Shown piece after piece: positions 12,154 through 64,000 of a stretch of DNA of 64,000 nt (positions are counted from its first letter, which is position 1; each line of letters starts with the position of its first letter). The translations under genes and the position numbers were made by a program. The notes beneath the pieces are model-generated. The model made no database searches. It saw only the letters and a program-made list of their open reading frames with translations, and was not told where the DNA came from. The DNA is from Theocolax elegans (Eukaryota > Arthropoda > Insecta > Hymenoptera > Cerocephalidae), in assembly GCA_026168455.1 (NCBI GenBank), contig CM047426.1, positions 38,503,175 through 38,567,174 on the forward strand, read 5' to 3'.

Positions 12154-12289
12154 TCTATATAATAATTAAGAGGCGAAGTCTCCGGTCTTTCTGTGACGTA
12201 ATTTTTCTCCGGTCTTTCTATGACGTAATTTTTCTCCGGGCTTTCTATGACGTCAATTTTCTCCGGCTATTTCGTTACGTAAATGATAA

Positions 12290-13273: not shown

Positions 13274-13342
13274 TGATATATAATATAATATAATATAATA
13301 TAATATAATATAATATAATATAATATAATATAATATAATAAA
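13274..13342 (+). repeat. (TATAA)n microsatellite
   Basis: Pentanucleotide TATAA repeated about a dozen times directly after the 98-bp array. Confidence 0.85.
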
Positions 13343-14828: not shown

Positions 14829-16275
14829 AATTACAATCGCGCCAACTTTTAAAATTAACTTATGTGGTGGTAAGCCATTAGGCGTTATTGAATTAAAAAA
14901 TTCTATTGGAATTGTATTATATATGTCCTCATTTTTATCAGAATTCGTTATATCAACACTAATATATTCCCTAGGTTCTCCGTTTAATCGATTTAATATT
15001 TCATTATTAATCTTTAAGACATCTTTATTTGTTGGTGCTAATATTACTTTACTGTATAGCGAGTTGTCATTAGAAATTATTAAAGGGCCAAAAGTTTCTG
15101 CAATCAAATCTCCGCGAGATAAAAGATTAGACGGTAAATGAATTAAATTATTATTTTTTTCAAAATCGCTACCATCACTACGTTGTTCTCCACTTTACGT
15201 AGCCAATCTTGGAACATATTATCATTATTATTAATTCTTTTGTTGCCTTGTAATGAAACATTATTAAACATTTTCCATAGTTTGCTTTTTTTAACACAAG
15301 ATTCTATTATTTGAATTCTATTTCCAAAACGTACAACTGATAAAATTTGTCGAAAGTCACCAGATAATATTACAATTTTACCGCCAAATGGTTCGGAAGT
15401 TCTTTTTATAATCTATCAACAGCATCAAAAGCAAATTTAGATACCATGGATATTTCATCCCAAATTATAACCTTTGTTTCTTTTAAATATTGTCCATATT
15501 CGGTTTTTAACTTTACATTACAAGTAGATTGCTCTGTTTAATTAAATGGTAATTTAAATGCAGTGTGTACAGTTTTTCCATCGATTAAAAGATTAGCTGC
15601 AATGCCAGTCCAAGCTACTGCTAATACATTTATATTCGAATTTTTTAAATATGCTATTAAATAATTATGTAAATAACTTTTACCACTACCTTTAGGACCG
15701 TCAATAAAAATTAATCTTTCTTTATTATTATTTTGAATAGCATTTATAGTGCCATTAAATATATTCGTCTGTATTTCAGATAAAGAACTTATGTTATTAC
15801 TCACAGAAGAACAGTATGTAGTAAAATCATTTAAATCTTTGGTGTATATTTCATTAATTTCATCTATTGAAGGTAAATCATTTTTATACAACGCGCAACC
15901 GTGTAATATTAAAATATCATTTAATTTATTTAAAACAATCTTTTCTGCTGCTTTTTCATTCACTTTTGGATCGTAAAAATAATTTTTGTACTTATCATAA
16001 AGATTTCGAATATTATTTGGTTTATGAAAAATAATTATGAATGCAAATAATTGAATTAAAGCATTTGGAAATTGGTATATAACTGCTTCTTGTAAGCAAT
16101 TATCCCATTCTTCATCTACTGATACCAATCCGCGGGCTGTTACTGCATCATAATAAGTTGGATATATTATATTATTAAAGAACCTTACATCCGTGAATGA
16201 TGTTGCGCCCGTTACATGTAATAATAACATTCTAAAATAAAATAATTCTGGTTGTTTAGGATTAACATAATACAT
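14829..16275 (-). pseudogene. Helitron helicase, N-terminal and central part
   Basis: Minus-strand reading. Codons at 16275-15538 are open and contain the Walker A motif IDGPKGSGKSYL, followed by AVAWTGIAANLLIDGKTVHT (Pif1-type helicase). Further down, WDEISM (Walker B, ~15470) and GDFRQ (~15355) are in other frames. The segment at 15107-14829 is open again (SKVILAPTNKDVLKINNEIL, NGLPPHKLILKVGA). At least three frameshifts or stops separate these pieces. The domain order matches the RepHel protein of autonomous Helitrons. Confidence 0.85.
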
Positions 16276-16314
16276 TCTACTTAAAATTGGCTTTGTAAAT
16301 TTTTTTCTTTTAAC

Positions 16315-17795
16315 CTAAATTTTTTTATTTTCATCATATACGTAATAATTTGGTATTTGAATATATAATAAATTTTTAGATGCATTATCATACGTATTTA
16401 ATTCAAACCAAGCAGTAAGTATGGTTGTAACATTGCGATCAATCGATTTTTCTTCTGATCCTTCTTTGAAATATAGATACTGTTCGTTTTCTAAATGTAT
16501 TGCTAATCGATAAATAGCATGTGATTGTTTGTACAATTTGAATTGACATAATCAATGCATTGCTTCAGGAGGACATACATATCGAGTAGATAAGTATTGA
16601 TCAATTTCATCGTAATTAAATACATTCTTATGTGATGAATCTTTATTATTAAAATTATTTAAATCATTAGTATCACTTTTAAATCTGACTAAAATACAAT
16701 CAGGCCCTTTATATAAATATTTAAATAAATACTTTATTGATTTAATTGTGCTGCATATTTCAACATTAATATGACAATTGAATTTCAATAGTAAGTAAGG
16801 ATTATAAGGAACTACATATTGATTAGTTGCTATTCTGTTAGAAGAATATTTAATTGCCCTCCCATTGTTACGACGACGATGTAAAGGATACCCATTGTAA
16901 TCATTATAATTAGTGTTATTATTATAAGAGTTAGGAAAATTTTTAGTACATTTTATTTTATTTTCGTCCATACAGGGTGAATTTAAATTTTGTTTTCCAC
17001 GTGGTCCATGGATCTTGTGCTGCTTTACAAACTCATATAATTTTGGATTAACATTCTTATCTGGTATTTCAGTACTTATTATACTATCTACTTGATCTGA
17101 ATTGTAAAATTTATCATTATCAACAAGATATAACAATAAATGCATATGAGGTAATCCATGTTTTTGAAACTCAATTACATAAATGTATGCTGCGACTATT
17201 CCAAAAATGTTTTCCTTTAATAATTCTTCTAAAAATGATTTTATTTTTCAATTGAAAACTCGAGCCACAAGATCAAGTCGATCTAAAGTAGTTTCATTGA
17301 ACTGTAAATTTTCAACTATTTCCGACCATTTTGATTGCACGATTTAGTAATAAATAAGTCGGGTTTACCACACGTTTGAACTAGAGTCATTGCATCCATA
17401 TAATTTTGTTGCAAAGCACGAGGACCGCCAATAAAAGTAGAGGGTAAAATAACCATTTTACCAACAGTTGTATTTTTATCTAATGCTTTATTATGTACAT
17501 AATCCATTAACCCACGATACATTTCTGTTCTTGAGGATGATTGCTGTTTACGAATGTAAAACAAACGAGTACCCTCTACTTTACACCATGCATCAACACA
17601 AAACTGTAGACTTACTTTACCTAATTGTAAACAAGGATTAAAATTGTTTCGAATACTAAATTTGTAAGAATAATATTCTAAAGCAGTAACTATGTTTTTT
17701 ATGTTATTACTGACACAAATTAGTAATAAATAAAAATGTATACTGTAACAATAATTATTATAATAATTAAGCAAAAAATATAATATAATTATCAT
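16315..17795 (-). pseudogene. Helitron Rep (HUH endonuclease) domain
   Basis: Minus-strand reading. Residues from 17795 down give LQFCVDAWCKVEGTRLFYIR, then ILPSTFIGGPRALQQNYMDA and KPDLFITKSCNQN, the Helitron_like_N region. After a frameshift and a stop, HGLPHMHLLLYL (17160-17125) supplies the HUH metal-binding motif. IKYLFKYLYKG (~16720) supplies the tyrosine motif used to nick and rejoin DNA. The segment at 16536-16315 continues the domain. Multiple breaks make it a pseudogene, although single-base errors could explain several. It lies directly upstream of the helicase domain, as in a RepHel fusion. Confidence 0.85.
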
Positions 17796-27900: not shown

Positions 27901-28207
27901 AGCCAATACCAACAAAATCCAAGCAGCCAATACCACCAAAACCCCAGCAGCCAAAACCAGCAGCGAAACAATCAAAATCAGTAAGCAAGTAGCCAATATA
28001 AATACTCGAACTCGAGAGCGCCGATTATCTTCAATCATCCGCGCAAACAGAACGAGCCATGCTACAGTTGCAATAAAGTGGGCCATTGGGCAGCAGAATG
28101 TCCGAATCAACGCTGTCGAGGTTGCGGTACACCCGGCGTGTACGTTAGAAATTGCCAGAGATGCAACTCAAATCAGGCAGCGGGAAACTTCAACCAGAGG
28201 AGATAAA
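27062..28207 (+). pseudogene. gag of element A, second copy of capsid core plus zinc knuckles
   Basis: Repeats the capsid core (27120-27463), then after a shift continues from ~27493 through a Gln/Asn-rich tail with SSQYQQNP repeats. An in-frame TAA at 27982-27984 is followed, in the same frame, by the nucleocapsid. CYSCNKVGHWAAEC is a perfect CX2CX4HX4C knuckle. CRGCGTPGVYVRNC is a second, degenerate one with Val where His is expected, followed by another CX2C-like QRC. gag ends at TAA 28205-28207. Nucleocapsid knuckles bind the genomic RNA. The pol frame is -1 relative to this frame. Confidence 0.8.
28182..28188 (+). promoter_or_regulatory. -1 ribosomal frameshift slippery site, element A
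   Basis: GGGAAAC in gag phase G GGA AAC, fitting X XXY YYZ. It sits 17 bases before the gag stop. A -1 slip enters the long pol frame exactly. Downstream, GACCC (28208) can pair with GGGTC (28239) and GCTCC (28229) with GGAGC (28244), an H-type pseudoknot, though the 19-base spacer is longer than usual. Confidence 0.7.
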
Positions 28208-31200
28208 GACCCGTATTTCCTCAACCCAGCTCCCTAAAGGGTCGGAGCCATCCCAATTAGCAAGTAATCAATCGCTTATCCAACATATCCCCAATATTGA
28301 CCCCAGGCATTATTTAATTCTAGAAATAAACGGCCATAAAATAATTGCACTCTTAGACGATGGAGCAACAAAATCTTTTCTAGGAGGCAATATAGGAGCT
28401 CTAGTGCAACACAAATTAAAAGCATCGCAATGTCCTGCAGTTAAGGTAGCAGACGGCACAGTTATTCCTGTCCAGGGCACAGTTAACATCACAATTAAAA
28501 TTGATGGAGACGAAATAGTTATGCCATTTGAAGTCGCAGACGGATTACACTACGACTGTATACTTGGAATCGATTTCAAACGCAAAATTAATATGAGCAT
28601 CAACTATGAAGATGACACCTGGTGGACGAATAAAGGCGTAATACACAAATTTTACCCCGAAGGCAACGATCCCAGTTGTATTCCAGCAGTAGCAAGTATA
28701 GGAGGATTAAAGCTAGCCAACCAAGAGCAAATAGATAGAATGCACCGACTATTAGATGAATTAATTCCCCCAACACCCCAAACCCTAGGAGTAACTAATT
28801 TAACGAGCCTCAAGCTAGATGTGCAAGGAGCAGAGCCAATAAGACAGCCACGCCGCAAATATTTACCAAAAATGCTTCAAGCAGGCTATGAAGAGATAGA
28901 TCGAATGTTAAGAGAAGACATAATAGAGCCTTCGCAAAGCCCATGGTGCAGCTATCCGGTAATCGTACCAAAAGCGAACGGCAAATATCGCTTTTGCATT
29001 GATTACAGGTTAGTAAATGAGGTAACAAAGAAAATAGCCTATCCAATGCGCAACATGGATGATATTCTGGACCAATTGCGAGAAAGCAGATTTATCAGTA
29101 AGCTAGATCTATCACAAGCCTACCACCAAGTTCCACTAGCCCCAGAAAGCCGTGAAATCACAGCATTTGCACTCCCAGGGAAAGGACTTTTCCAATTTAA
29201 AAGAGTACCATACGGTCTAACGAACGCACCTGCTATGTTCCAGCAATTGATGGACAAATTAATTAAACCGGAATGGGAACCACATGTGTTTGCCTATCTA
29301 GATGATATTATCATCACGACAAAATCATTTGAGGAACACATGAAATGGCTCAGAATAGTCCTAGTAGCCCTAAAGAAAGCCAATCTGCAATTAAACCGAG
29401 AAAAATCAGAATTTTGTTGTCCAGAAGTAACTTATCTTGGATATAAGATAAACGAATTAGGTTTGCAAACTAACCAAGATAAAATTAAGCCAATCTTAGA
29501 GTATCCAGCACCGAAAAATTTGAAACAACTAAGACGTTTCAACGGCTTAGTGGGATGGTACTCTAGATTTATTAAAGATTTAGCCAAGTATAGAACGCCA
29601 TTAAGTTATCTAAGCAAGAAAGGTGTCAAATGGCAATGGCATCAAGAGCAACAAGATGCATTTGAAAAAATCAAACTAGCCCTAACAGAAGCCCCAGTTT
29701 TAGCCCGCCCCGATTTTTCTATTCCCTTTACCCTTCAAACGGACGCAAGCGATTACGCAATAGCAGGCGTATTAACGCAGGAGATCAACGGCGAGGAACA
29801 TCCTATTTATTATGTAAGCAGGACTTTAAGCAAAGCAGAGCGCAATTATACGGTCACAGAGAAAGAATGCTTAGCATTTAAGTTTACGGTAATCACGGAC
29901 CATCACAGCCTCCTGTGGTTAAACCGACTTAAAGATCCAGCTGGTAGGTTAGCCCGTTGGAATACGATCTTGCAAAATTACAACATTAAATTTGTACATC
30001 GCAAAGGAGCAATGCATAATGTCCCAGACGCCTTACCAAGAGCCTTTGAAGAAGCAGAAGCCATAGCAGCAGCATTAACATTAAATACCAATAACCCATG
30101 GTATCAAGAGAAAATGCGAGCCGTTGCAAAATTTCCCAATAAATACCCTGACCTCAGAATCTCCAATAACGTGCTATATGCCCACCGTCCAAACCCCCTG
30201 GTAGACCCCTTCATACCTGACCTAGACGCATGGAAATTAATCTTGGCAGAAAGTGATCGCGAAAAAGCCCTATATGAAGCCCATTATACACCTCAGGCAG
30301 GTCACTTAGGTATTGACAAGACCTACGCAAAACTAGCCACGCATTATTATTGGCCAGGCATGTATTACGATACGTGCAATTATGTAAAAGCATACCAAGA
30401 ATGCCAAGCGCACAAAAGCAGCCAACAAGCCCCACCAGGTCTAATGGAAGGACGGAACATAAGCCAACCATGGACAGTGGTAGCAGCAGACATTATGGGA
30501 CCAAAGCCGCCAACGAAGCAAGAATTTAGATACATAATCGTGTTTGAAGACCTATTCACCCGTTATATAGAGATGAAACCTCTACGACGAGCTGATGCAA
30601 AAAGTGTCCTACAAGCCTTCGACGAACTCATTATTAATAGATGGGGTTGTCCAAAATATCTCGTAACAGATAATGGGACAGAATTTGCCCATAAATTGGT
30701 TACCGAGCGACTAACGCAATACGGAATAGTACAGACAACCATTCCGCCATACTTTGCACAAGCAAACCCCGTAGAGCGAGTTAACAGAAACATAAAGCCG
30801 ATGATAAACAGTTATTTAGCAGATGATCACCGAGACTGGGATAGATATCTCGGAGAATTTAATTTTGCTCTAAATACAGTAGTGCACTCGTCAACCAAAT
30901 AAAGCCCAGCATTCCTCAACTTAGGCAGAAATCCCACCCCAGTAGCTCTCCTACGAAAACACATAGAATTCCCGAAGCAAATACCAGCCCCAGATACCGA
31001 TCAATGGGTAGAACGCCTACATAAACTTCCCAAAATATATGATTTAGTAAAAAGGCATATTGATTTAGCAACAGCCAGACAAGCCAAGTACTATAACAAA
31101 GGCAGACGTGATATACAATATCAATTAGGAGACCTAGTTAGGTACCGAAATCGCATCTTATCATCAGCAGATAACTTTATAGCAGCCAAACAAGCCCCCA

Positions 31201-36577: not shown

Positions 36578-37620
36578 ATGGACAAGTTGCAATTTAAGTT
36601 TACGTTGCTAGAAGCCTCGGATGGAAAATCCAACATATTATGTGTAACCAGACTCACCACGCCAGACGGTCGAGTGTATAAAATTCCACACGATTACATG
36701 AATGCAATCTACCACGAGGAGCTCGCTAAAACGCCTACGTTTAATAAGGTAAAGAAAGCATTAAAACAAAGACACCAAATGAGACAAGTATGGATTACTT
36801 TAACTAAAGAATTAAAAAATACTTATTTTGATAAAGAAGGAAATGTACAATTTAACGATGAATATTTAGAAGAATTGATTGAAAACAAAAATACTAGTGA
36901 CGTGACAGCGAATGCAGCAGAAATACCATTAGTACAACTATTACAGAAATTACTTGAAAAAAGCGAAGAAAAATCGGAAAAATAAACATTGGAAAATTAG
37001 CTAAAGAATTTACAATTGAAAAATTTGATGGTAAAAATTCGAATGCGAATCAATGGATGATTGAATTTGAAAAAGAATGTGAACGGTTTGATTTAAACAT
37101 TGATAACAAAAAAATTGAAATTTTAAAATCTTTTATGGAAAAGGGGGCCGCAGATTGGTATAGTTGTACACTTCTCAAGCTTACAATTGAAGCAAATTGG
37201 GAAGAGTGGAAACAAAATTTTTGTAATACATTTGCCAGTAAAGGATGGTCTCAAATAAAATATGCATTAGCATTTAAATATCAGACAGGTTCATTGTTAG
37301 AATACTCTATAAAAAAAGAAAAAATTTTATTGCTAGTAAGAAAAACTATTGACAATGAAACGTTGATAGATCTGATTGCTATAGGTCTGCCAAATTATAT
37401 AATTGATAAAATTGATAGAGAAAAATTAACAAAAACTGAAGACCTACATAATGAAATAAGTAAATTAGAACATTTAATGTACAAAAAAAATTTAGATATG
37501 AAAAAGAATAAACCAAACACAAAAGAGAAAAGTGAAAAAACACCTTGCAAAATATGTAAAGAAAAAGAAAAAGGAACACGTTTCATTCTGAAACTGAATG
37601 CTGGTTTAAAGATCAAAAAA
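36578..37620 (+). pseudogene. gag: gag of element B
   Basis: Starts at ATG 36578 (MDKLQFKFTLLEASDG). The first frame stops at 36985 in an A-run. The protein sense continues one base out of phase with KLAKEFTIEKFDGKNSNANQ and a Trp-rich capsid-like core (WMIEFEKECERFDL, GAADWYSCTLL, WEEWKQNFCNTF). The end has CKICKEKEKGTRF. One base is missing before what would be an HxxxxCW sequence completing an unusual long CCHC-type knuckle. The same loss occurs in the downstream duplicate, so it is probably not a random read error. Confidence 0.75.
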
Positions 37621-38610
37621 TAGAATTAATAAAGTCAAACAAGTAAATAATTTACTTTAGGACGTAGAACTAAGTGATGAAAATCCAAAAAACTAATAAT
37701 ACCACCATTGATTGAACTCCCAATAAAATAAATGATATTTTAAAAATATCTGCTATCTATGATCCAGGATCAAATGTTACATAATAAATTCAAATTACTA
37801 AATTTAAAATCTACAAATAATGATATAAAAAAGAAAAAACAAATTGAGAACACTTAATGGTGTGTACTAATAGGATTAGATTGTATAAAGAAATTCAGAC
37901 TGATAAAAAAAGAAAAAATTTTATTGCTAGTAAGAAAAACTATTGACAATGAAACGTTGATAGATCTGATTGCTATAGGTCTGCCAAATTATATAATTGA
38001 AAATTGATAGAGAAAAATTAACAAAAACTGAAGACCTACATAATGAAATAAGTAAATTAGAACATTTAATGTACAAAAAAAATTTAGATATGAAAAAGAA
38101 TAAACCAAACACAAAAGAGAAAAGTGAAAAAACACCTTGCAAAATATGTAAGAAAAAGAAAAAGGAACACGTTTCATTCTGAAACTGAATGCTGGTTTAA
38201 AGATCAAAAAATAGAATTAATAAAGTCAAACAAGTAAATAATTTAACTTTAGACGTAGAACTAAGTGATGAAAATCCAAAAAACTAATAATACCACCATT
38301 GATTGAACTCCCAATAAAATTAAATGATATTTTAAAAATATCTGCTATCTATGATCCAGGATCAAATGTTACATTAATAAATTCAAAATTACTAAATTTA
38401 AAATCTACAAATAATGATATAAAAAAAGAAAAAACAAATTTGAGAACACTTAATGGTGTGTATAAAACAGATGGATTAATAAAAATAAAAATAAAGATTC
38501 TAAATATAGAGGATCACATGAATGTGTTCATAATAAACAATAAAAATTTCAAACATGACTTTCTAATAGGATTAGATTGTATAAAGAAATTCAGACTGAT
38601 ACAAAATGAA
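37312..38610 (+). repeat. ~592-bp imperfect duplication inside element B
   Basis: Sequence from 37312 (AAAAAAGAAAAAATTTTATT) starts again near 37904. The first copy has several one-base losses (37660-37860) and a ~120-base internal deletion relative to the second, then jumps back. It spans the end of gag and the start of protease. Confidence 0.8.
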
Positions 38611-39126
38611 AAATTAGAGATAGAACAAAAACATTCCGAATCTAATGATATAATAAATGAGTATCAAATCAATTTTAATGAACACATTGAAATAAGCACC
38701 TTCAACGTTTCAACAAACCACTTAAAACGTGATGAAGAAAAAGTAATAAAGAACCTAATAGACAAATATAAAAATATATTTGCAAAAGATAAATATGATA
38801 TAGGTACTGTAAAAGATTACGAAGCTAGAATAGATTTGACAATAGATAAATACTGTAGTAAAAGACCATATAAATGTACAATCGAAGATAAAAAAGAAAT
38901 AGAAGAACAAATTTCACAATTACTTAAAAGAAACCTAATAGAAGAATCATACAGCCCATTTGCTGCTCCAGTAACGTTAGCTTATAAAAGAGATGAAAAT
39001 AAAAAATCTAGATTATGCATAGATTTTAGAGATTTAAATAAAATCATAATTCCTCAATCACAACCGTTTCCACTGATTGAAGACCTAGTAATAAAGACAA
39101 GAAATTGCAGTTTTTTTCAAAACTAG
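38299..39126 (+). CDS. pol: Protease and N-terminal RT of element B
   Basis: The frame opens in the protease. SAIYDPGSNVTLIN has the catalytic Asp at 38352, in a DPGS context rather than the usual DTGA/DSGA. HDFLIGLDCIKKFRL follows, as expected for the second conserved protease segment. RT begins with AKDKYDIGTVKDYEARIDL, ...LIEESYSPFAAPV and SRLCIDFRDLNKI. The frame ends at 39126 because a T-run at ~39108-39115 is one base short. Adding that base in thought continues directly into the next frame. Confidence 0.85.
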   Translation: MIELPIKLNDILKISAIYDPGSNVTLINSKLLNLKSTNNDIKKEKTNLRTLNGVYKTDGLIKIKIKILNIEDHMNVFIINNKNFKHDFLIGLDCIKKFRLIQNEKLEIEQKHSESNDIINEYQINFNEHIEISTFNVSTNHLKRDEEKVIKNLIDKYKNIFAKDKYDIGTVKDYEARIDLTIDKYCSKRPYKCTIEDKKEIEEQISQLLKRNLIEESYSPFAAPVTLAYKRDENKKSRLCIDFRDLNKIIIPQSQPFPLIEDLVIKTRNCSFFQN

Positions 39127-41315
39127 ATATAAATTCAGCATTTTGGTCTATCCCTTTACGAATTGAAGACAGAAGAAAAACAGGCTTTGTGACCCAAGAA
39201 GGTCATTTTCAATGGACCTGTTTACCATTTGGTTTAAAAACATCACCAGCTATCTTCCAAAGAATTTTAAGCAATATAATAAGAAAAAATAATTTATCAA
39301 ATTTTACAGTCAATTACATAGATGATATATTAATATTTTCAAAATCTTTCAAAGAACATGTAGACCATCTATCAAAACTATTAGATGCAATTATGAAGGA
39401 AGGATTCCGATTGAAACTGTCAAAGTGCACATTTGCACTGGACTCTGTGCAATACTTAGGACATATAATTAAACATAACTCAATTTCTCCGATAAAAGAT
39501 AATTTAATTTCCATAAGAAACTTTCCGGTCCCAGAAAATAAGAAAAATGTTCGACAATTTCTAGGAAAAATCAACTTTTATAACGAATATGTACCAAAAA
39601 CGTCTCTAATTTTAGAACCGCTGCATAACCTATTAAGAAAAAATCAAAAATTTGTTTGGTCAAAAGAATGTCAAGAAGCGTTCGAATACATGAAAAATTT
39701 CCTTTGCACTCAACCAGTATTAACTATATTTGATCCAGACTTACCAATACACATATACACAGATGCAAGTTTAAAAGGTATAGGTGCAATATTAAAACAA
39801 CCACAATTAAACGAGAATCCAATAACTGAAAAACCAGTAGCATACTTTTCAAAAAAACTGAATGAATCACAAAAAAGAAAAAAAGCAATTTACTTAGAAT
39901 GTATAGCAATAAAAGAAACAGTAAAGTATTGGCAACACTGGCTTATAGGCAAACATTTTAAAGTATTTTCAGATCATAAACCATTAGAAAAAATGAATAT
40001 AAAATCGAGAACAGATGAAGAGCTAGGCGATCTTACCTATTATTTATCACAGTTTGATTTCAAAATAATATACCGTCCAGGTAAAGATAATTTAGAAGCA
40101 GACTGCTTAAGCAGAAATCCAGTATTAGAGTCTGAAGAAGACGAAGAGGATAAATTGAAGATTGTAAACTTAATTAGTTTAGAAGATATTTTAGAGAATC
40201 AAAAAAAAAATAAAGAGATAGAATCCAACAAAGACAAACTAAAGTATAAAAATAATTTGTATTATAAAAAATCAAGAAACAAAGATAAAATTTTCTTATC
40301 AGAAGAATTTAGTAAACAATTAATAAAAGACACGCATAAGAAATTTTGTCATATTGGAATAAACCAAATGAAAAATAAGATACTGCCGTATTATACAGCA
40401 ACAAATATATCTGAAAATATAAAGAAAGCCTGTAGATGTTGCGAAGTATGTATACAAAATAAGTCAAGAAGGCAAGACAAAATTGGGTTAATGTCACACC
40501 TTGGCCCTGCAAAAAAACCTTTTGAAATAGTCTCTATCGATACAATAGGTGGATTCGGTGGCTTAAGATCTACAAAAAAATATTTACATCTCTTAGTAGA
40601 TCACTTTACAAGATATGCTTGCATATTGACATCAAAAACACAAAATGCAAATGATTTCATTAAATTAACAGAAAATGTACTACGAGACCATAATATTCAA
40701 ATACTTCTAACAGATCAATATCCAGGTATAAATTCTAAAGAATTCAAAAATTTCTTAGAAGAAAAAGGGGTTACAATGATCTTTACAGGAATTAATGCAC
40801 CATTATCGAACGGTCTAAACGAAAGACTTAACCAAACTTTAGTAAATAAAATAAGATGTGCGATAAACGAAGAAAAAAAGAAGTGTGGATGGACAACTAT
40901 AGCAAGAAATTGCATAAACCAATACAATGAGACCGAGCACACGGTAACAAAATTTAGTCCGAAATATTTATTAAATGGTGAAGATACATCAGCACTACCA
41001 AATGAACTAAAAAAGAATAGAGATTATAATCAACTGGAAAACGATAGAGAAACTGCATTTAAAAACAGTATAAAATACCATGAATATAATAAGAAATTAT
41101 ATGACAAAAATAGAAAAGAACACGAATTTATGTTAGGAGATTTAGTATACATTGAAAATGGTAACCGAATGAACCGAAAGAAATTGGATATGCTAAGAAT
41201 CGGGCCATACAAGATTTTAAAGAAGATATCAAACTCAATGTATGAAGTTAATACAGGACACAAAAAGTTAGAATCAAATTTATTCCATATTTCAAAATTA
41301 ACTCCATCTCCTTAA
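39105..41315 (+). CDS. pol: RT, RNase H and integrase of element B
   Basis: Continues pol: FSKLDINSAFWSIPL, LPFGLKTSPAIFQRIL, then YIDD at 39315. RNase H has IYTDASLKGIGAIL and FSDHKPLEKMN. The integrase zinc finger is HKKFCHIGINQMKN with CCEVCIQNK. Core residues are D (SIDTIGG, 40539), D (TDQYPGI, 40713) and E (GLNERLNQ, 40821), the last two 36 codons apart. The C-terminus has LRIGPYKILKKIS, a GPY/F module. 736 codons, intact to TAA 41315. It lies 105 bases before the 3' LTR. RT with YIDD is normal for Gypsy elements. Confidence 0.92.
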   Translation: MQFFSKLDINSAFWSIPLRIEDRRKTGFVTQEGHFQWTCLPFGLKTSPAIFQRILSNIIRKNNLSNFTVNYIDDILIFSKSFKEHVDHLSKLLDAIMKEGFRLKLSKCTFALDSVQYLGHIIKHNSISPIKDNLISIRNFPVPENKKNVRQFLGKINFYNEYVPKTSLILEPLHNLLRKNQKFVWSKECQEAFEYMKNFLCTQPVLTIFDPDLPIHIYTDASLKGIGAILKQPQLNENPITEKPVAYFSKKLNESQKRKKAIYLECIAIKETVKYWQHWLIGKHFKVFSDHKPLEKMNIKSRTDEELGDLTYYLSQFDFKIIYRPGKDNLEADCLSRNPVLESEEDEEDKLKIVNLISLEDILENQKKNKEIESNKDKLKYKNNLYYKKSRNKDKIFLSEEFSKQLIKDTHKKFCHIGINQMKNKILPYYTATNISENIKKACRCCEVCIQNKSRRQDKIGLMSHLGPAKKPFEIVSIDTIGGFGGLRSTKKYLHLLVDHFTRYACILTSKTQNANDFIKLTENVLRDHNIQILLTDQYPGINSKEFKNFLEEKGVTMIFTGINAPLSNGLNERLNQTLVNKIRCAINEEKKKCGWTTIARNCINQYNETEHTVTKFSPKYLLNGEDTSALPNELKKNRDYNQLENDRETAFKNSIKYHEYNKKLYDKNRKEHEFMLGDLVYIENGNRMNRKKLDMLRIGPYKILKKISNSMYEVNTGHKKLESNLFHISKLTPSP

Positions 41316-50894: not shown

Positions 50895-51299
50895 ATGGTT
50901 TATGAAATCGAGGAGGGCGATAAATGCGGACCTCGTGAAAATAAGGAAAATTTTGTTGACCAAAAGATGAATTGTCGAGTAAAAATGGATTATGAAATCG
51001 AGGAGGGCGATAAATGCGGACCTCGTGAAAATAAGGAAGATTTTGTTGATAAAAAGTTGAATTGTCAAGTACGAATGGTTTATGAAATCGAGGAGGGCGA
51101 TAAATGCGGACCTCGTGAAAATAAGGAAAATTTTGTTGACCAAAAGATGAATTGTCGAGTAAAAATGGATTATGAAATCGAGGAGGGCGATAAATGCGGA
51201 CCTCGTGAAAATAAGGAAGATTTTGTTGATAAAAAGTTGAATTGTCAAGTACGAATGGATTACGAAATCGAGGAGGGCGATAAATGCGGACCTCGTGAT
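50895..51299 (+). repeat. 90-bp coding minisatellite in the protease-RT linker of C
   Basis: Four and a half units of 90 bp start at 50895, 50985, 51075, 51165 and 51255. Each encodes 30 residues with YEIEEGDKCGPRENKE. Two unit types alternate (FVDQKMNCRVK and FVDKKLNCQVR), so the higher-order period is 180 bp. A degenerate half-unit precedes it (~50845). Confidence 0.9.
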
Positions 51300-53549
51300 A
51301 AAAATGTTAGTTATATTTGTAAATTGAATAACGAAGAATTGGTTATGTCGGGGGAAAAGTTAGATACTATCCCGAGAACCGAAATATTATGGATAAACAA
51401 ACAAGGAACTGAAGAAACTGAAAATGAGATAAATAATGAGAATTTAATAAACATACAGGAAGAAAATGAACAGGATGAGGACCCTAGCGATTTTTTATTG
51501 AATGAACGAGTTATAAACGAAAATTTACGAAGTGAATTTGTTGAAGCCATACACGAAAACGAAATGAATAACAGTTATTTGGTTTATTCAAATAAACCTT
51601 ATATTAATAATTTTTATAGTTATGAAAGTGAAGAGGTCGACATACACGACATTTCTGACGATCGATCTGAAGCGAGGATACTTAACATAACGGAGGATAC
51701 AAGTGCACTTAATCGTAATGAACGGTTAAAAGAAGCCTTGCATTTTGATAAAATGGACGAGGAACAATCTATAGAAAATTTAATTGATAAATATTCGGAT
51801 TGTTTCTGTCTAAAAGGAGAAAAAATAGATGTGACAAATGCTATAGAACATAAGATACCGACTGTCGACGACATACCAATCACAGCTAAGCCATATAGAT
51901 TTCCTCATGCTCTCAAAAGCGAACTTGATAAACAATTAAAAGAAATGATTGAAGGAGACATAATTGAACCATCAAGTTCCAATTATATATCACCTGTTTT
52001 TCTAGTAACAAAAAATCCTGATAGTCAGGGTAATAAACGATACCGACTAGTTGTCGATTTTCGACAATTAAACGATAAAACCGTAAAAGATCGATACCCA
52101 TTACCTAATATACTAGATATTATCGATCAAATCGAACCAGAAAATCGTGTATTCACCATCTTGGATTTATGTCAAGGATTTTTACAAGTTCTGTTAGCTC
52201 AAGAAGATCAACATAAAACAGCTTTCGCATCTTCATTCGGTTTATGTCAATTTACAACAATGCCTATGGGACTATGCGATTCTCCAGCCACTTTTCAAAG
52301 AATGATTGATCGTGTTTTCGAGGGCATGCAAGGCAAAGAAATATTTTTATTCCTTGACGACGCAGTTATATACGCTAAAAATATTCTGGAACATAACCAA
52401 AAGTTTGAAAAATTTTTGCAAAGAGTACGAGCCGCAAATCTGAAATTACAGCCAGACAAATGTGAATTTTTGAAGAGAGAAGTAGTGTATCTGGGACACG
52501 TACTATCACCAGAAGGTGTTTTGCCGGATCGAAAAAAATTAGAAGTAGTAAAAAAATTTCCAATTCCAAAAACAGTGAAAAACATACGTCAATTTTTAGG
52601 ATTAGCAGGTTATTATAGACGATTCATTGCAAATTTTTCGGGTATTGCTAGACCATTGAGTAATTTATTAAAGAAAGACGCACCCTTTCTATGGTCCAGC
52701 GAGGTTCAAAAGGCATTCGATGATTTAAGAGAAAAATTGTGTAAACAACCAATACTACAAATTGCAGATTTTAATAAACCATTTATAGTGACTTGTGACG
52801 CTAGCGGTACAGCAATAGGAGCAATATTATCACAAGAAGAGGTGGGAACCGACCTACCAGTTGCTTATGTTTCACGAGTATTAAACAAAGCCGAGCAAAA
52901 ATATGATACTTACTCAAGGGAAGCATTAGCCATACTGTATGCCGTTACTCAGTTCGATTGCTATTTAAGAGGTCGTCGTTTCCTCATTATAACAGATCAT
53001 AAACCACTTGTTTGGTTTAAAAACTCAGTAGATCCGACATCCAGAATTAGTAGATGGAGAATAAAACTGAATGCATACGACTTTGACATCGTATATAAAG
53101 CCGGTAAAAGTAACGTTAATGCTGACGCGTTATCAAGAAATCCAATAGAAGAACCCGTTTATGTTATTAAAAATCATTCTATGGAAACACGCAGTCGTGC
53201 AGGAAAAATAATACGGCCAAACTACAACGAAAAGAGAGCAAAGCGACCCAACAAGTCAAATATATCAAAAGAACCAGTCAAAAACCTTCCTATAATACAA
53301 GAAGCCCCCGAGGAAATTGAAACGATAGTCAACTCAGACAAAAGATTACAACCCATGGAGATAGATAATTTTAACAACAAATTTGACGAGTCCTGGGAAG
53401 AAAAGGATGTTTACGAAGAACCAAATGATGAAAAGAAATTCATTGAAGTTAAAGAACAACTCTTTATGAGAAAAAATAATTACATTTATTTCATAACTAC
53501 GACTGGAATGCCTTTAGATGAAGGATCCAGAAATTTGGCTCCAAATTAA
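50895..53549 (+). CDS. pol: RT and RNase H of element C
   Basis: 884 codons from ATG 50895. N-terminal 135 residues are the acidic 30-residue repeats, then an acidic linker. RT: VFLVTKNPDSQGNKRYRLVV, FTILDLCQGFLQVLL, MPMGLCDSPATFQRM, then FLDD at 52350 (Phe in place of the usual Tyr). RNase H: VTCDASGTAIGAILSQ and LIITDHKPLVWF, then NADALSRNP. The frame ends at 53549, where a T-run is one base short. The integrase continues one base out of phase. Confidence 0.92.
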   Translation: MVYEIEEGDKCGPRENKENFVDQKMNCRVKMDYEIEEGDKCGPRENKEDFVDKKLNCQVRMVYEIEEGDKCGPRENKENFVDQKMNCRVKMDYEIEEGDKCGPRENKEDFVDKKLNCQVRMDYEIEEGDKCGPRDKNVSYICKLNNEELVMSGEKLDTIPRTEILWINKQGTEETENEINNENLINIQEENEQDEDPSDFLLNERVINENLRSEFVEAIHENEMNNSYLVYSNKPYINNFYSYESEEVDIHDISDDRSEARILNITEDTSALNRNERLKEALHFDKMDEEQSIENLIDKYSDCFCLKGEKIDVTNAIEHKIPTVDDIPITAKPYRFPHALKSELDKQLKEMIEGDIIEPSSSNYISPVFLVTKNPDSQGNKRYRLVVDFRQLNDKTVKDRYPLPNILDIIDQIEPENRVFTILDLCQGFLQVLLAQEDQHKTAFASSFGLCQFTTMPMGLCDSPATFQRMIDRVFEGMQGKEIFLFLDDAVIYAKNILEHNQKFEKFLQRVRAANLKLQPDKCEFLKREVVYLGHVLSPEGVLPDRKKLEVVKKFPIPKTVKNIRQFLGLAGYYRRFIANFSGIARPLSNLLKKDAPFLWSSEVQKAFDDLREKLCKQPILQIADFNKPFIVTCDASGTAIGAILSQEEVGTDLPVAYVSRVLNKAEQKYDTYSREALAILYAVTQFDCYLRGRRFLIITDHKPLVWFKNSVDPTSRISRWRIKLNAYDFDIVYKAGKSNVNADALSRNPIEEPVYVIKNHSMETRSRAGKIIRPNYNEKRAKRPNKSNISKEPVKNLPIIQEAPEEIETIVNSDKRLQPMEIDNFNNKFDESWEEKDVYEEPNDEKKFIEVKEQLFMRKNNYIYFITTTGMPLDEGSRNLAPN

Positions 53550-53554
53550 TACTA

Positions 53555-54913
53555 CCTCATTTTTCCAATTTAAATCCAGGAGAAATAAGAATCAATAACA
53601 AAAACGGAAAAATGCATTTTGCTATGGTGTTACGTGACGAAGAGCGACTGAGTACTTCAGAAATTATTAATAATCTAAAAACGAATCTATTAAATATGAA
53701 AAATATTATATTAAAAGAAAAATTACGTTCAATAAGTATCGCGAAGAGCGAATTTATTGAAAACGTTTCATGGAACGAAATATTGAAACAAATAAGTATA
53801 ACTCTACGAAACATTAATGTAAAAATAATTATTTGTTTAGGATTCATAAAATGTGTGGAAGAGAGTAATAGGGAAAATATTATTCGCGAAATGCACGAGT
53901 CTGCTTGTGCAGGGCATAAAGGGGTAACAAAAACCTATAAACGTATAAACCAACGTTTTTATTGGCCAGATATTAAGAAAGACGTACAAAACTACATTAG
54001 ACATTGTTTAACTTGCCAACTAAAAAAATTGGTTCGTGTTAAAACTAAACAACGTATGATAATAACAGATACTCCGTACTCGGCTATAGAATCCATATCG
54101 GTGGATCTTGTGGGACCATTTCCCAGATCTCGAAATAATAACAATAATATATTAACCATTCAATGTAACCTTTCAAAATACTGTATGGCGATACCCATAC
54201 CAGACGCGACCGCGGCAACGATCGCCGAAGCATTAGTCCGTCGACACTTTTCAATTTTTAGCGCCCCATTGTTAATTATCTCCGACCAAGGTACCTCATT
54301 TTTAAGTAGTCTGATGAGAGAAGTAGCGAAAATTTTTAAGATTAAACAAGTTAAAACCACGGCTTATCACCCTCAGTCCAACTCCGTTGATCGTTTTCAT
54401 AGCAGCTTAGCAGATTATTTAAAAACAATGATAGAAAGAAATGACGCATGGGATGAGTTATGCGAATTAGCCGCGTTTTCGTATAATACGTCGGTACATG
54501 AGGGTCATCTCTACACACCTTTTGAAATTTTTTTTTCACGAAAAGCGCGACTACCATCAAACGAACCTTTAGACCCACGAGAACGAGTTCCAACGTATGA
54601 TGATTACATTATAAATTTACGACAACGTTTAAACGAAATACAGGGAATCGTGCGAGAAAAATTAATAGCTTCTAAACATAGGTCGAAATTCTATTACGAC
54701 AGGAAAGCCAATCATCAAGAATTTCAGACAGGGGATAATGTCTGGTTATTAAAAGGAGGGAAGAAATACAAACTAGGCGATCAATATACTGGACCACATC
54801 GGATTTTAGAAATAATTAATAACAAGGGAAATGTAAAAATAGAGCTATCACATAATAAAACGAAAATAGTGCATGTTAATAGGTTAAGATATTCATATAT
54901 GGAGCCTTTATAG
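53555..54913 (+). CDS. pol: Integrase of element C
   Basis: The sense frame resumes with LPHFSNLNPGEI and GKMHFAMVLRDEE (first Met 53612). Zinc region: MHESACAGHKGVTKTYKRIN and HCLTCQLKK (HHCC complete). Core: D (SVDLVGPF, 54104) and D (ISDQGTSF, 54284). At the third catalytic position, 35 codons on, is Asp instead of Glu (SNSVDRFH, 54389). The C-terminus has YTGPHRILEIINNKG (GPY/F type) and ends at TAG 54913. The E-to-D change would be expected to weaken or abolish strand transfer. Confidence 0.9.
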   Translation, partial: PHFSNLNPGEIRINNKNGKMHFAMVLRDEERLSTSEIINNLKTNLLNMKNIILKEKLRSISIAKSEFIENVSWNEILKQISITLRNINVKIIICLGFIKCVEESNRENIIREMHESACAGHKGVTKTYKRINQRFYWPDIKKDVQNYIRHCLTCQLKKLVRVKTKQRMIITDTPYSAIESISVDLVGPFPRSRNNNNNILTIQCNLSKYCMAIPIPDATAATIAEALVRRHFSIFSAPLLIISDQGTSFLSSLMREVAKIFKIKQVKTTAYHPQSNSVDRFHSSLADYLKTMIERNDAWDELCELAAFSYNTSVHEGHLYTPFEIFFSRKARLPSNEPLDPRERVPTYDDYIINLRQRLNEIQGIVREKLIASKHRSKFYYDRKANHQEFQTGDNVWLLKGGKKYKLGDQYTGPHRILEIINNKGNVKIELSHNKTKIVHVNRLRYSYMEPL

Positions 54914-58253: not shown

Positions 58254-58378
58254 AAAAAAGGAAACTAATATCTAACTCTTTTCTTTGACTTTTTAGAAAA
58301 TATATATGTAAGCATACAAATATTATAGAAGAAAATTGAAAATTTTGTAAAAAAAACGTGACTACGAGAAGAAAAAAA

Positions 58379-58392
58379 TACTAGTAACATAT
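58379..58392 (+). repeat. Left target-site duplication of the ribozyme array
   Basis: TACTAGTAACATAT; the same 14 bases follow the array at 61957-61970. Confidence 0.7.
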
Positions 58393-58558
58393 TTGAAATA
58401 AAATGAATTTATCGTTCGGTGATATTTATATGTGTAAATTATATAATATCGGTCTCTCCGAACTAAATGCTTTATTTTAGATTAAAGCAGGCCTATCGTA
58501 CTATTTGTCCACTATGGCTGGTGGAATTTCCCAGAGTACGGCCTTTTAAAATAATTAA

Positions 58559-58625
58559 AGGCGTTTCGTCCTCGATCTCCAGCTTGACTCCTCAGTAAGG
58601 AACTGGAGACTTACCTTAGACGCCT
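58559..58625 (-). ncRNA. Hammerhead block, damaged (67 nt)
   Basis: Two one-base losses relative to the 69-nt form. One shortens stem II (TCC loses a pairing base), the other lies in loop I. Probably inactive, or a sequence error at the array edge. Confidence 0.6.
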
Positions 58626-59091
58626 GTCGCAAGATGAAACGCGACGCCAGCTAGATGTTCTGCGGCTATATATATAGAAAAGAACGACGATCTCTCCAAC
58701 GAGTGTAGAGAGATAGTCGTCTCCATCTGGTGGTGGGAAAAAACCACCAGCCAGAGTGCGACGTATTAGACCCAGGTCGCAAGTTTATTTGAAATAAAAT
58801 GAATTTATCGTTCGGTGATATTATATACGATCTCTCCAACGAGTGTAGAGAGATAGTCGTCTCCATCTGGTGGTGGGAAAAACCACCAGCCAGAGTGCGA
58901 CGTATTAGACCCAGTCGCAAGTTATTTGAAATAAAATGAATTTATCGTTCGGTGATATTTATATGTGTAAATTATATAATATCGGTCTCTCCGAACTAAA
59001 TGCTTTATTTTAGATTAAAGCAGGCCTATCGTACTCTTTGTCCACTATGGCTGGTGGAATTTCCCAGAGTACGGCCTTTTAAAATAATTAA

Positions 59092-59160
59092 AGGCGTTTC
59101 GTCCTCGATCTCCAGCTTGGACTCCTCAGTAAGGAACTGGAGATCTTACCTTAGACGCCT
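59092..59160 (-). ncRNA. Type III hammerhead ribozyme, intact
   Basis: Identical on the minus strand to the 60168-60236 block: same GUC site, stems I-III, CUGAGGA and GAAA. The only intact copy in the left arm. Confidence 0.85.
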
Positions 59161-59487
59161 GTCGCAAGATGAACCGCGACGCCAGCTAGATGTTCTGCGG
59201 CTATATATATAGAAAAGAGACGACGATCTCTCCAACGAGTGTAGAGAGATAGTCGTCTCCATCTGGTGGTGGGAAAAACCACCAGCCAGAGTGCGACGTA
59301 TTAGACCCAGTCGCAAGTTATTTGAAATAAAATGAATTTATCGTTCGGTGATATTTATATGTGTAAATTATATAATATCGGTCTCTCCGAACTAAATGCT
59401 TTATTTTAGATTAAAGCAGGCCTATCGTACTCTTTGTCCACTATGGCTGGTGGAATTTCCCAGAGTACGGCCTTTTAAAATAATTAA

Positions 59488-59556
59488 AGGCGATTCGTCC
59501 TCGATCTCCAGCTTGGACTCCTCAGTAAGGAACTGGAGATCTTACCTTAGACGCCT
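59488..59556 (-). ncRNA. Hammerhead block with core mutation
   Basis: GAAA is changed to GAAT (plus strand CGATTCG), replacing the A that pairs with the U of the cleavage triplet. The rest is intact. Expected to be strongly impaired. Confidence 0.75.
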
Positions 59557-59883
59557 GTCGCAAGATGAACCGCGACGCCAGCTAGATGTTCTGCGGCTAT
59601 ATATGTAGAAAAGAGACGACGATCTCTCCAACGAGTGTAGAGAGATAGTCGTCTCCATCTGGTGGTGGGAAAAACCACCAGCCAGAGTGCGACGTATTAG
59701 ACCCAGTCGCAAGTTATTTGAAATAAAATGAATTTATCGTTCGGTGATATTTATATGTGTAAATTATATAATATCGGTCTCTCCGAACTAAATGCTTTAT
59801 TTTAGATTAAAGCAGGCCTATCGTACTCTTTGTCCACTATGGCTGGTGGAATTTCCCAGAGTACGGCCTTTTAAAATAATTAA

Positions 59884-59952
59884 AGGCGTTTCGTCCTCGA
59901 TCTCCAGCTTGGACTCCTCAGTAAAGAACTGGAGATCTTACCTAACACGCCT
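59884..59952 (-). ncRNA. Hammerhead block with altered cleavage site
   Basis: The triplet is GUG instead of GUC, and stem I bases differ on both strands (TTAGG/CTTTA). NUG sites are not cleaved by hammerheads, so it is probably inactive. Confidence 0.75.
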
Positions 59953-60167
59953 GTCGCAAGATGAACCGCGACGCCAGCTAGATGTTCTGCGGCTATATAT
60001 ATAGAAAAGACTTGCGACTGGGTCTAATACGTCGCACTCTGGCTGGTGGTTTTTCCCACCACCAGATGGAGACGACTATCTCTCTACACTCGTTGGAGAG
60101 ATCGTCGTCTCTTTTCTATATATATAGCCGCAGAACATCTAGCTGGCGTCGCGGTTCATCTTGCGAC

Positions 60168-60236
60168 AGGCGTCTAAGGTAAGATCTCCAGTTCCTTACT
60201 GAGGAGTCCAAGCTGGAGATCGAGGACGAAACGCCT
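60168..60236 (+). ncRNA. Type III hammerhead ribozyme
   Basis: Stem III AGGCGT pairs perfectly with ACGCCT at the other end, so the motif opens through stem III (type III). Cleavage triplet GTC, predicted cut after C60174. Stem I TAAGG/CCTTA. Core CTGAGGA (CUGANGA). Stem II GTCC/GGAC. Core GAAA, whose last A pairs with the U of the triplet. All invariant core bases are present. Loop I contains GATCTCCAG and loop II contains CTGGAGATC, fully complementary over 9 bases, giving a potential loop-loop contact as needed for fast natural hammerheads. Cleavage in adjacent units would release ~396-nt RNA monomers that could be ligated to circles. Confidence 0.9.
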
Positions 60237-60563
60237 TTAATTATTTTAAAAGGCCGTACTCTGGGAAATTCCACCAGCCATAGTGGACAAAGAGTACGAT
60301 AGGCCTGCTTTAATCTAAAATAAAGCATTTAGTTCGGAGAGACCGATATTATATAATTTACACATATAAATATCACCGAACGATAAATTCATTTTATTTC
60401 AAATAACTTGCGACTGGGTCTAATACGTCGCACTCTGGCTGGTGGTTTTTCCCACCACCAGATGGAGACGACTATCTCTCTACACTCGTTGGAGAGATCG
60501 TCGTCTCTTTTCTATATATATAGCCGCAGAACATCTAGCTGGCGTCGCGTTTCATCTTGCGAC

Positions 60564-60632
60564 AGGCGTCTAAGGTAAGATCTCCAGTTCCTTACTGAGG
60601 AGTCCAAGCTGGAGATCGAGGACGAAACGCCT
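60564..60632 (+). ncRNA. Type III hammerhead ribozyme
   Basis: Intact copy, identical to 60168-60236, 396 bases downstream. Confidence 0.88.
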
Positions 60633-60959
60633 TTAATTATTTTAAAAGGCCGTACTCTGGGAAATTCCACCAGCCATAGTGGACAAAGAGTACGATAGGC
60701 CTGCTTTAATCTAAAATAAAGCATTTAGTTCGGAGAGACCGATATTATATAATTTACACATATAAATATCACCGAACGATAAATTCATTTTATTTCAAAT
60801 AACTTGCGACTGGGTCTAATACGTCGCACTCTGGCTGGTGGTTTTTCCCACCACCAGATGGAGACGACTATCTCTCTACACTCGTTGGAGAGATCGTCGT
60901 CTCTTTTCTATATATATAGCCGCAGAACATCTAGCTGGCGTCGCGGTTCATCTTGCGAC

Positions 60960-61028
60960 AGGCGTCTAAGGTAAGATCTCCAGTTCCTTACTGAGGAGTC
61001 CAAGCTGGAGATCGAGGACGAAACGCCT
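60960..61028 (+). ncRNA. Type III hammerhead ribozyme
   Basis: Intact copy, 396 bases after the previous one. Confidence 0.88.
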
Positions 61029-61358
61029 TTAATTATTTTAAAAGGCCGTACTCTGGGAAATTCCACCAGCCATAGTGGACAAAGAGTACGATAGGCCTGC
61101 TTTAATCTAAAATAAAGCATTTAGTTCGGAGAGACCGATATTATATAATTATATACACATATAAATATCACCGAACGATAAATTCATTTTATTTCAAATA
61201 ACTTGCGACTGGGTCTAATACGTCGCACTCTGGCTGGTGGTTTTTCCCACCACCAGATGGAGACGACTATCTCTCTACACTCGTTGGAGAGATCGTCGTC
61301 TCTTTTCTATATATATAGCCGCAGAACATCTAGCTGGCGTCGCGGTTCATCTTGCGAC

Positions 61359-61427
61359 AGGCGTCTAAGGTAAGATCTCCAGTTCCTTACTGAGGAGTCC
61401 AAGCTGGAGATCGAGGACGAAACGCCT
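61359..61427 (+). ncRNA. Type III hammerhead ribozyme
   Basis: Intact copy, 399 bases after the previous one (TA-run difference outside the ribozyme). Confidence 0.88.
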
Positions 61428-61759
61428 TTAATTATTTTAAAAGGCCGTACTCTGGGAAATTCCACCAGCCATAGTGGACAAAGAGTACGATAGGCCTGCT
61501 TTAATCTAAAATAAAGCATTTAGTTCGGAGAGACCGATATTATATAATTATATATACACATATAAATATCACCGAACGATAAATTCATTTTATTTCAAAT
61601 AACTTGCGACTGGGTCTAATACGTCGCACTCTGGCTGGTGGTTTTTCCCACCACCAGATGGAGACGACTATCTCTCTACACTCGTTGGAGAGATCGTCGT
61701 CTCTTTTCTATATATATAGCCGCAGAACATCTAGCTGGCGTCGCGGTTCATCTTGCGAC

Positions 61760-61828
61760 AGGCGTCTAAGGTAAGATCTCCAGTTCCTTACTGAGGAGTC
61801 CAAGCTGGAGATCGAGGACGAAACGCCT
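61760..61828 (+). ncRNA. Type III hammerhead ribozyme
   Basis: Intact copy, 401 bases after the previous one; last in the array. Confidence 0.88.
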
Positions 61829-61956
61829 TTAATTATTTTAAAAGGCCGTACTCTGGGAAATTCCACCAGCCATAGTGGACAAAGAGTACGATAGGCCTGC
61901 TTTAATCTAAAATAAAGCATTTAGTTCGGAGAGGCCGATATTATATAATTTACACA

Positions 61957-61970
61957 TACTAGTAACATAT
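61957..61970 (+). repeat. Right target-site duplication of the ribozyme array
   Basis: TACTAGTAACATAT, matching 58379-58392. Confidence 0.7.
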
Positions 61971-63566: not shown

Positions 63567-64000
63567 AAATACCCCTCACCGGTAAAAAAGCACACTTTGA
63601 CCTTCATTAATATTATAACGTCAAAGCGGGGCTCACAAAGATAATTTTCCGATTTTTTGTGTGTCGGCATAAGTACGGATACATGGTTGAATTTTCGGTG
63701 GAATTATGCTGACGTCGGCATAATTACCCCAAAGTAAGCACAATTCCCATTTCCCGTAAGAATATGCCGACAAATTCTTACGGGAAATGGGAATTGTGCT
63801 TACTTTGGGGTAATTATGCCGACGTCAGCATAATTCCACCGAAAATTCAACCATGTATCCGTACTTATGCCGACACACAAAAAATCGGAAAATTATCTTT
63901 GTGAGCCTCCGGCCTCCGGCACCTCGAAATACGTTATAGCTTCAATCCTTCATTAATATTATAACGTCAAAGTGTGCTTTTTTACCCGTGAGGGGTATTT
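63567..64000. mobile_element. Foldback-like palindromic element (reaches window end)
   Basis: The left end AAATACCCCTCAC and the right end GTGAGGGGTATTT are inverted copies, with GGTAAAAAAGCACACTTTGAC also inverted. A second inner palindrome of ~110-bp arms (~63653-63765 and ~63776-63888) is almost perfect, centred on ATGCCGACAAATTC. No coding capacity. It may extend beyond 64000. Confidence 0.7.

Follow-up and report, generated by a model that had tools for sequence, protein, structure and literature searches.

Animal retrozymes without long terminal repeats (LTRs) have been described as non-coding tandem repeats of low G+C content, with units of a few hundred base pairs that each carry a type I hammerhead ribozyme, and the same 2020 paper names long interspersed nuclear elements (LINEs) and Penelope-like elements as candidate mobilizers (PMC7229834). 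A purified Penelope-like protein from Anolis (PAc) is reported to start reverse transcription (RT) within an AC-rich stem-loop, at two neighbouring internal sites whose spacing equals the genomic 'tail' of 30–40 bp, and to cut and extend both target strands at AT-rich DNA (PMC11167929). The Penelope elements of Adineta are described as having terminal repeats that are inverted and mostly head to head, together with a 31-bp tail and duplications of 8–10 bp (PMC3846280). Here we analysed 64,000 nt of the Theocolax elegans genome (assembly GCA_026168455.1, contig CM047426.1, positions 38,503,175 to 38,567,174 of the forward strand; hereafter the window), in which an earlier note, made from the letters alone, had read positions 58393–61956 as a retrozyme-like array of ~396-bp repeats, each encoding a type III hammerhead. 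We consider it likely that this element is a non-autonomous, non-coding retrozyme, the transcripts of which would be self-cut and circularized, and which is moved by Penelope-like machinery.

The region 58393–61955 is a single insertion flanked by 15-bp target-site duplications, with its two arms arranged head to head. Its main features are as follows.

58378–58392, no strand: left copy of the 15-bp target-site duplication, ATACTAGTAACATAT, an exact repeat at both array edges
61956–61970, no strand: right copy of the duplication, ATACTAGTAACATAT, an exact 15-bp repeat
58393–60010, minus strand: antisense arm of ~4 units, with an internal deletion near 58786–58827 and its 3' end at unit position ~396 (site B); from unit BLAST and the junction table
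60010–61955, plus strand: sense arm of five units, the last incomplete, with its 3' end at unit position ~357 (site A); from unit BLAST and the junction table
60010, 60406, 60802, 61201 and 61602, plus strand: starts of the sense-arm units
60064–60117, plus strand: very stable hairpin (z=−5.75); truncated arm ends (unit 100–108) cluster at its 3' base
60332–60381, plus strand: hairpin with an ACAC-containing apical loop just 5' of end A (unit ~356–362), first plus-strand unit (fold of 60300–60425, z=−2.87)
60401–60405, plus strand: preferred end B (unit 392–396), ~37 nt 3' of A, first plus-strand unit; from end positions

The ~396-bp periodicity given in the earlier note held: the complete plus-strand units measure 396, 396, 399 and 401 bp (n=4), and Tandem Repeats Finder reports 396-bp arrays at 58827–60010 and 60010–61958. 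Its limits are refined here to the 15-bp repeats, whilst its picture of a plain array proved too simple, as the integration anatomy (two preferred 3' ends and head-to-head arms) had been missed. The unit has a G+C content of 42.7 % and is non-coding, with a longest stop-to-stop frame of 70 codons on the circular unit. Folding the unit as a circle, as had been proposed, gave a strongly folded RNA (−135.1 kcal/mol, z=−7.8), but one whose lowest nested fold lacks the hammerhead. The check for plant-type primer-binding sites (PBS) and polypurine tracts (PPT) consisted of a tRNA-gene scan of the window, which found no such gene. The outermost antisense unit (58390–58784) differs from the other units by several single-base indels, reflecting either assembly error or decay. 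By eye, a TATA-like CTATATATATAG was seen at 60116–60127, and in each plus-strand unit ~50 nt upstream of the cut site, as a possible internal promoter. We also considered whether the contiguity of the arms, the antisense one ending at unit 396 and the sense one beginning at 1, is a sign of twin priming on one linear template; since inner ends vary at other loci, we attribute it to chance.

Nine hammerhead copies lie within the insertion, six of them intact, and the loops of the first plus-strand copy contain a long complementary stretch.

60167–60237, plus strand: intact type III hammerhead, unit 1, predicted cut after C60174 (RF00008, 36.5 bits; descriptor)
60563–60633, plus strand: intact type III hammerhead, unit 2 (RF00008, 36.5 bits)
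60959–61029, plus strand: intact type III hammerhead, unit 3 (RF00008, 36.5 bits)
61358–61428, plus strand: intact type III hammerhead, unit 4 (RF00008, 36.5 bits)
61759–61829, plus strand: intact type III hammerhead, unit 5 (RF00008, 36.5 bits)
59091–59161, minus strand: intact type III hammerhead, antisense arm (RF00008, 36.5 bits)
59883–59953, minus strand: damaged hammerhead, changes in cleavage site and stem I (~59921); limits by offset from intact copies
59487–59557, minus strand: damaged hammerhead, GAAA to GAAT (~59525); limits by offset from intact copies
58557–58626, minus strand: damaged hammerhead, single-base losses in loop I and stem II (~58595); limits by offset from intact copies
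60183–60191, plus strand: loop I strand of the 9-nt loop–loop complement, read from the sequence
60213–60221, plus strand: loop II strand of the 9-nt loop–loop complement, read from the sequence

In the Rfam scan of both strands that the earlier note had suggested, RF00008 (Hammerhead_3) matched the six intact copies with an E-value of 1.9e-5 (3751 bases searched), though none reaches the Rfam gathering score of 48.5, a shortfall that is probably due to the long loops. A strict descriptor (full core, stem I of at least 5 bp, stem II of 4 bp and stem III of 6 bp) recovered five motifs on the plus strand and one on the minus strand, and none in 200 Markov-resampled windows. The count of five plus-strand copies and one minus-strand copy, one per unit, and the predicted cleavage position had thus been read correctly. 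The topology is type III, rather than the type I by which described metazoan retrozymes are recognized. The stems had been called normal in length; they are in fact short (5, 4 and 6 bp for stems I, II and III), with loops I and II of 14 nt each that are perfectly complementary over 9 nt and share one layout (3 nt, 9 nt, 2 nt). Complementarity of at least 9 nt arose in 29 of 200,000 loop shuffles. A loop I–loop II pseudoknot is plausible. Loop pseudoknots are described as common in hammerheads, where they can be essential for speed (PMC3088659), with stated lengths of 4–6 bp (PMC3088659, PMC11300833). Among the matches listed, 23 type-III-like motifs from 120 viral loci showed loop complementarity of at most 3 nt, a weak yardstick given that the search pattern fixed loop II at 4–30 nt.

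A search of the 658-Mb assembly with the unit gave at least 255 matches; full-length copies among the matches listed are 94–100 % identical and lie on C1 to C7 (66–111 Mb each) as well as on two small contigs. From 37 fetched stretches (loci among the matches listed) plus the window we delimited 41 intervals of at least 200 nt, dropping shorter ones (one piece in L135) and including L137, L138, L141 and L153, which hold several or duplicated insertions. Direct repeats of at least 11 bp were present at the edges of 24 of the 41 intervals, 16 of them 13–14 bp long; when edges were paired across loci, this length was reached in 8 of 2000 pairings. The 24 target duplications have a G+C content of 15 %, compared with 31 % for the flanks. 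Intact hammerheads were found in 123 of 162 copies (38 loci, window included). Judged by these sequence features the element is a dispersed mobile family and not a plain satellite, and the retrozyme reading of the earlier note is borne out by the dispersal, the target-site duplications, the folded non-coding unit and the conserved hammerhead. In L137 (G000:C1:81633000-81642900) retrozyme pieces recur at ~600- and ~1000-bp spacing, which we read as secondary amplification of an inserted copy.

More distant relatives are also present. A relic fragment in L184 has 41 matches genome-wide, and of 20 relatives fetched with it 13 match the hammerhead region by BLAST, five of them spanning it nearly whole; RF00008 was detected at E ≤ 1 in one of the 20 (L210, 36.6 bits). 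What many of these diverged relatives (L184:204-414, L197–L216) have in common is chiefly a module immediately 3' of the hammerhead (unit ~240–296), which may be a protein-binding site. A search with the retrozyme pattern of two outside collections, viral_contigs and genome_contigs, returned no match.

Evidence on the mobilizer comes from the insertion ends. The outer arm ends, which are 3' ends of the sense strand, cluster at unit positions ~351–363 (A) and 390–396 (B), ~37 nt apart, with the exact end base blurred by short matches to the AT-rich target. With the classes fixed as 350–368 for A and as 386–396 or 1–8 for B, 23 of 29 two-armed insertions carry one A and one B end, and none carries two A ends. 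Amongst the 12 one-armed insertions, eight end at A, three at B and one elsewhere. Site A lies just 3' of the ACAC-containing apical loop of the hairpin at unit 323–372. Inner arm ends, by comparison, vary among loci. After exclusion of L137, L138 and L141 as complex, the hammerhead cut site had no arm 5' end within 2 nt (0 of 61; 0.8 expected), and ten of the 61 fell in unit 98–110 (2.0 expected), an interval picked after the data were seen; their position at the 3' base of the very stable hairpin suggests that the enzyme stops there. Most arms (49 of 61) are longer than one unit, and a circular or uncut multimeric template would fit them better than one that is linear, monomeric and terminated at the cut site, although 0 against 0.8 is a weak comparison.

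Resident Penelope-like elements follow a similar rule. The genome has 98 listed GIY-YIG matches, and we surveyed the ends of 31 loci (L166–L196), six of which showed the family end in both orientations. At five of these (L170, L171, L184, L192 and L196) only one of the arms is complete at its end, its partner falling 23–30 nt short, with edge repeats of 9, 13, 13, 17 and 13 bp, respectively; 20 crossed pairings of the same edges gave 4–8 bp. In the 9-kb locus L196 two frames, 833 and 824 codons long, are arranged head to head, and both encode an RVT_1 domain (E=1.7e-10) and a GIY-YIG domain (E=4e-6). A 13-bp repeat marks the two edges of this locus, and one of its arms exceeds the other by ~29 nt. 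Its arms (~2.8 kb each) are 99.8 % identical with long open frames, and it looks young; a hammerhead-like motif was read in it by eye. An Rfam search of 14 of 30 Penelope loci gave no match up to E=1.

The paired ends A and B, the target duplications, the same end rule at five of six resident loci and the two RT starts published for the Anolis protein together indicate that Penelope-type machinery probably mobilizes the retrozyme. The element carries what its junctions identify as a Penelope integration footprint, namely two adjacent RT start points and head-to-head arms, and by analogy we infer a shared enzyme from the shared footprint. In the scheme that we propose, the hammerhead would cut multimeric transcripts and many of the monomers would be ligated to circles. 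A Penelope-like RT/GIY-YIG protein would nick both target strands, each of which would prime RT inside the RNA, one at A and the other at B; copying by the enzyme would then proceed round the circle, or on an uncut multimer, and come to a halt, in many cases at a strong hairpin; finally the two cDNAs would be joined head to head. The published Penelope elements provide close parallels, as those of Anolis and Adineta have an optional tail of ~30–40 nt at one end (PMC11167929, PMC3846280), those of Adineta share the inverted head-to-head arms (PMC3846280), and those of Anolis share the AT-rich targets, the internal RT start and a hammerhead within the element (PMC11167929). The window element differs from Penelope-like elements so described in having a type III hammerhead and no frame for RT or GIY-YIG endonuclease.

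A number of observations weigh against this reading. Duplications of 11 bp are lacking in 17 of the 41 intervals, and six of the 29 two-armed insertions break the A + B pattern: L138 has two B ends, and the other five each have an end that belongs to neither class; among the latter, L135 (ends 362 and 370) comes near to A + A. The sixth two-orientation Penelope locus, L190, is irregular with an edge repeat of 3 bp, and the Penelope tail examined (~29 nt) is shorter than that of the retrozyme (37 nt). When the unit was compared by BLAST with 30 GIY-YIG loci and with L196, no Penelope end was significantly matched, although not every locus is known to include one. Folding raises further objections. 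A core-burying hairpin formed from the same 9 bp reaches −28.4 kcal/mol, compared with −13.0 kcal/mol for the hammerhead stems alone (nested energies; the latter figure leaves out the loop duplex, worth −13.8 kcal/mol), and the nested minimum holds this hairpin at every 5-nt step of nascent length from 60217 on. No pair with compensatory double changes occurs among 59 haplotypes (162 copies), and changes are as numerous as 23 over the 9 positions of the loop I strand and 13 over the 9 of loop II, against 29 over 21 flanking positions.

As no sequence common to the unit and the Penelope ends was found, Penelope recognition of the retrozyme RNA may be structural, or the relevant Penelope family may lie outside those examined. 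One match of the unit, in L184, was considered as a sequence link between the two and rejected; it lies outside the Penelope arm (edge at 588) and is read as an old retrozyme relic.

A rival reading is movement of the retrozyme by a LINE through L1-type twin priming. Duplications of 13–16 bp and inverted arms also occur with LINEs, and the comparison of mobilizers within the genome covered Penelope loci only. Here, however, the two arms start from preferred sites inside the unit, as a rule a different one for each arm, whereas the second priming site of L1 twin priming is not known to be fixed, and the resident Penelope insertions obey the same end rule at five of six loci. We regard a LINE as quite unlikely to be the mobilizer, even though Nematostella repeats with 15-bp duplications have been likened to LINE insertions (PMC4918200). 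A plain satellite with an incidental hammerhead, propagated through unequal exchange or DNA circles, would agree with the near-identical tandem units and with the local amplification of some loci (L137), but is very improbable, since the copies are dispersed over C1–C7 and have target duplications and preferred ends. An origin of the copies by integration of an infectious viroid-like RNA is barely credible: the unit is indeed small, non-coding and highly folded, but its matches number at least 255, diverged relatives exist, and the other strand of the unit has no Rfam ribozyme at E-values up to 10.

A further alternative is that the hammerhead is inactive, in which case the selected feature would be the simple hairpin made from the same 9-nt complement, as favoured by the nested minimum free energy and by the lack of compensatory changes; an alignment of six sequences (the window copy and five relatives) likewise showed no covariation. 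We think this unlikely, as the full core and three paired stems persist in 123 of the 162 copies, the motif was absent from all 200 Markov windows and the relative L210 has retained a hammerhead. For the Penelope-moved retrozyme that we favour, the 9-nt complement would either lock stems I and II through a pseudoknot or give the inactive hairpin, and folding would thus possibly be switchable or dependent on a protein partner. The Anolis Penelope hammerhead is reported to cleave only with added protein (PMC11167929), and for this reason a protein-assisted form of the window hammerhead is reasonable to test. A bolder version, which we advance tentatively and regard as doubtful, is that resident Penelope proteins act in trans on the non-coding circular RNA, beginning RT at two structural sites, circling the template repeatedly and joining both cDNAs head to head, and that the type III hammerhead is a ribozyme with two states, a single 9-bp helix being shared by the active pseudoknot and the inactive hairpin, with the Penelope protein perhaps acting as the switch.

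Set beside other described systems, the window unit lies within the limits published for metazoan non-LTR retrozymes (G+C below 50 %, units of 150–450 bp and, when present, duplications longer than 4 bp, here mostly 13–14 bp), and departs from them in its type III hammerhead with a 9-nt loop complement and in having insertion ends that bear on the mobilizer (PMC7229834). On its sequence, then, the element is a retrozyme in the broad sense that falls outside the type I definition of the metazoan family, and the view in the earlier note that type III would be unusual here agrees with the published type I descriptions. Plant LTR retrozymes are likewise type III and non-autonomous, but are described with LTRs of ~330–400 bp, PBS and PPT, and 4-bp duplications (PMC4918200), as opposed to 13–14-bp duplications and many tandem units in the window element. 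Type III hammerheads with a 5-bp first stem, as here, and with Watson–Crick pairing between loops 1 and 2, for which the loops here have a complement, are reported from termite and toad hepatitis delta virus (HDV)-like RNAs, dipteran genomes and satCYDV-RPV; those of termite and toad have an extra helix I hairpin and a 4-nt loop pairing, unlike the window element, and the termite genomic copies are isolated motifs rather than arrays (PMC7936874). That 2021 search, for one atypical type III architecture, is reported to have found none in hymenopterans (PMC7936874). The pDo500 satellite of Dolichopoda cave crickets is also an insect repeat with a hammerhead per unit, but its ~500-bp unit is described as a satellite (PMC2837043), whereas for the window element an insertion anatomy is described here. 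Within open-licence full-text literature, which leaves preprints and most subscription papers outside, we found neither a type III animal retrozyme nor a retrozyme with Penelope tail ends described. As a 2020 review hints at insect type III elements, with work in preparation (PMC7761336), the type III aspect may already be partly familiar to specialists.

Other repeats populate the remainder of the window. Arrays of one 98–99-bp repeat lie at 12285–13277 and 14427–14829, with copies of a 27-bp repeat (TCTCCGGTCTTTCTATGACGTAATTTT) ahead of each, and a long minisatellite built from 39- and 59-bp units occupies 4605–7868. A near-perfect palindrome (63567–64000; arms 63630–63766 and 63771–63907, 99 %) sits inside 38-bp inverted repeats, and is foldback-like or similar to a miniature inverted-repeat transposable element (MITE). 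Gypsy-type polyprotein frames were recognized by Pfam at 28152–30902, 37057–41315 and 50895–54913, the last opening with a 90-bp tandem repeat read in frame. For one Gypsy-type polymerase, 27 of the 120 relatives listed carry organism names (Trichogramma, bees, ants, Leptopilina and Microplitis), all of which we take to be hymenopteran genera; for a second element Trichogramma leads the named relatives, with other insects and non-insects also present. Judged from these relatives, the host is probably hymenopteran. On the minus strand, 15538–17795 holds a helicase piece with a PIF1 domain (15538–16275) and two neighbouring frames, which together are presumably Helitron-like.

As to the mobilizer of animal retrozymes, the paired preferred ends described here point to Penelope machinery. 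The A/B end footprint can be looked for in every retrozyme-bearing genome. The type III form with its long loop complementarity widens the animal retrozyme repertoire, and at the same time gives a testable model of a protein-dependent ribozyme.

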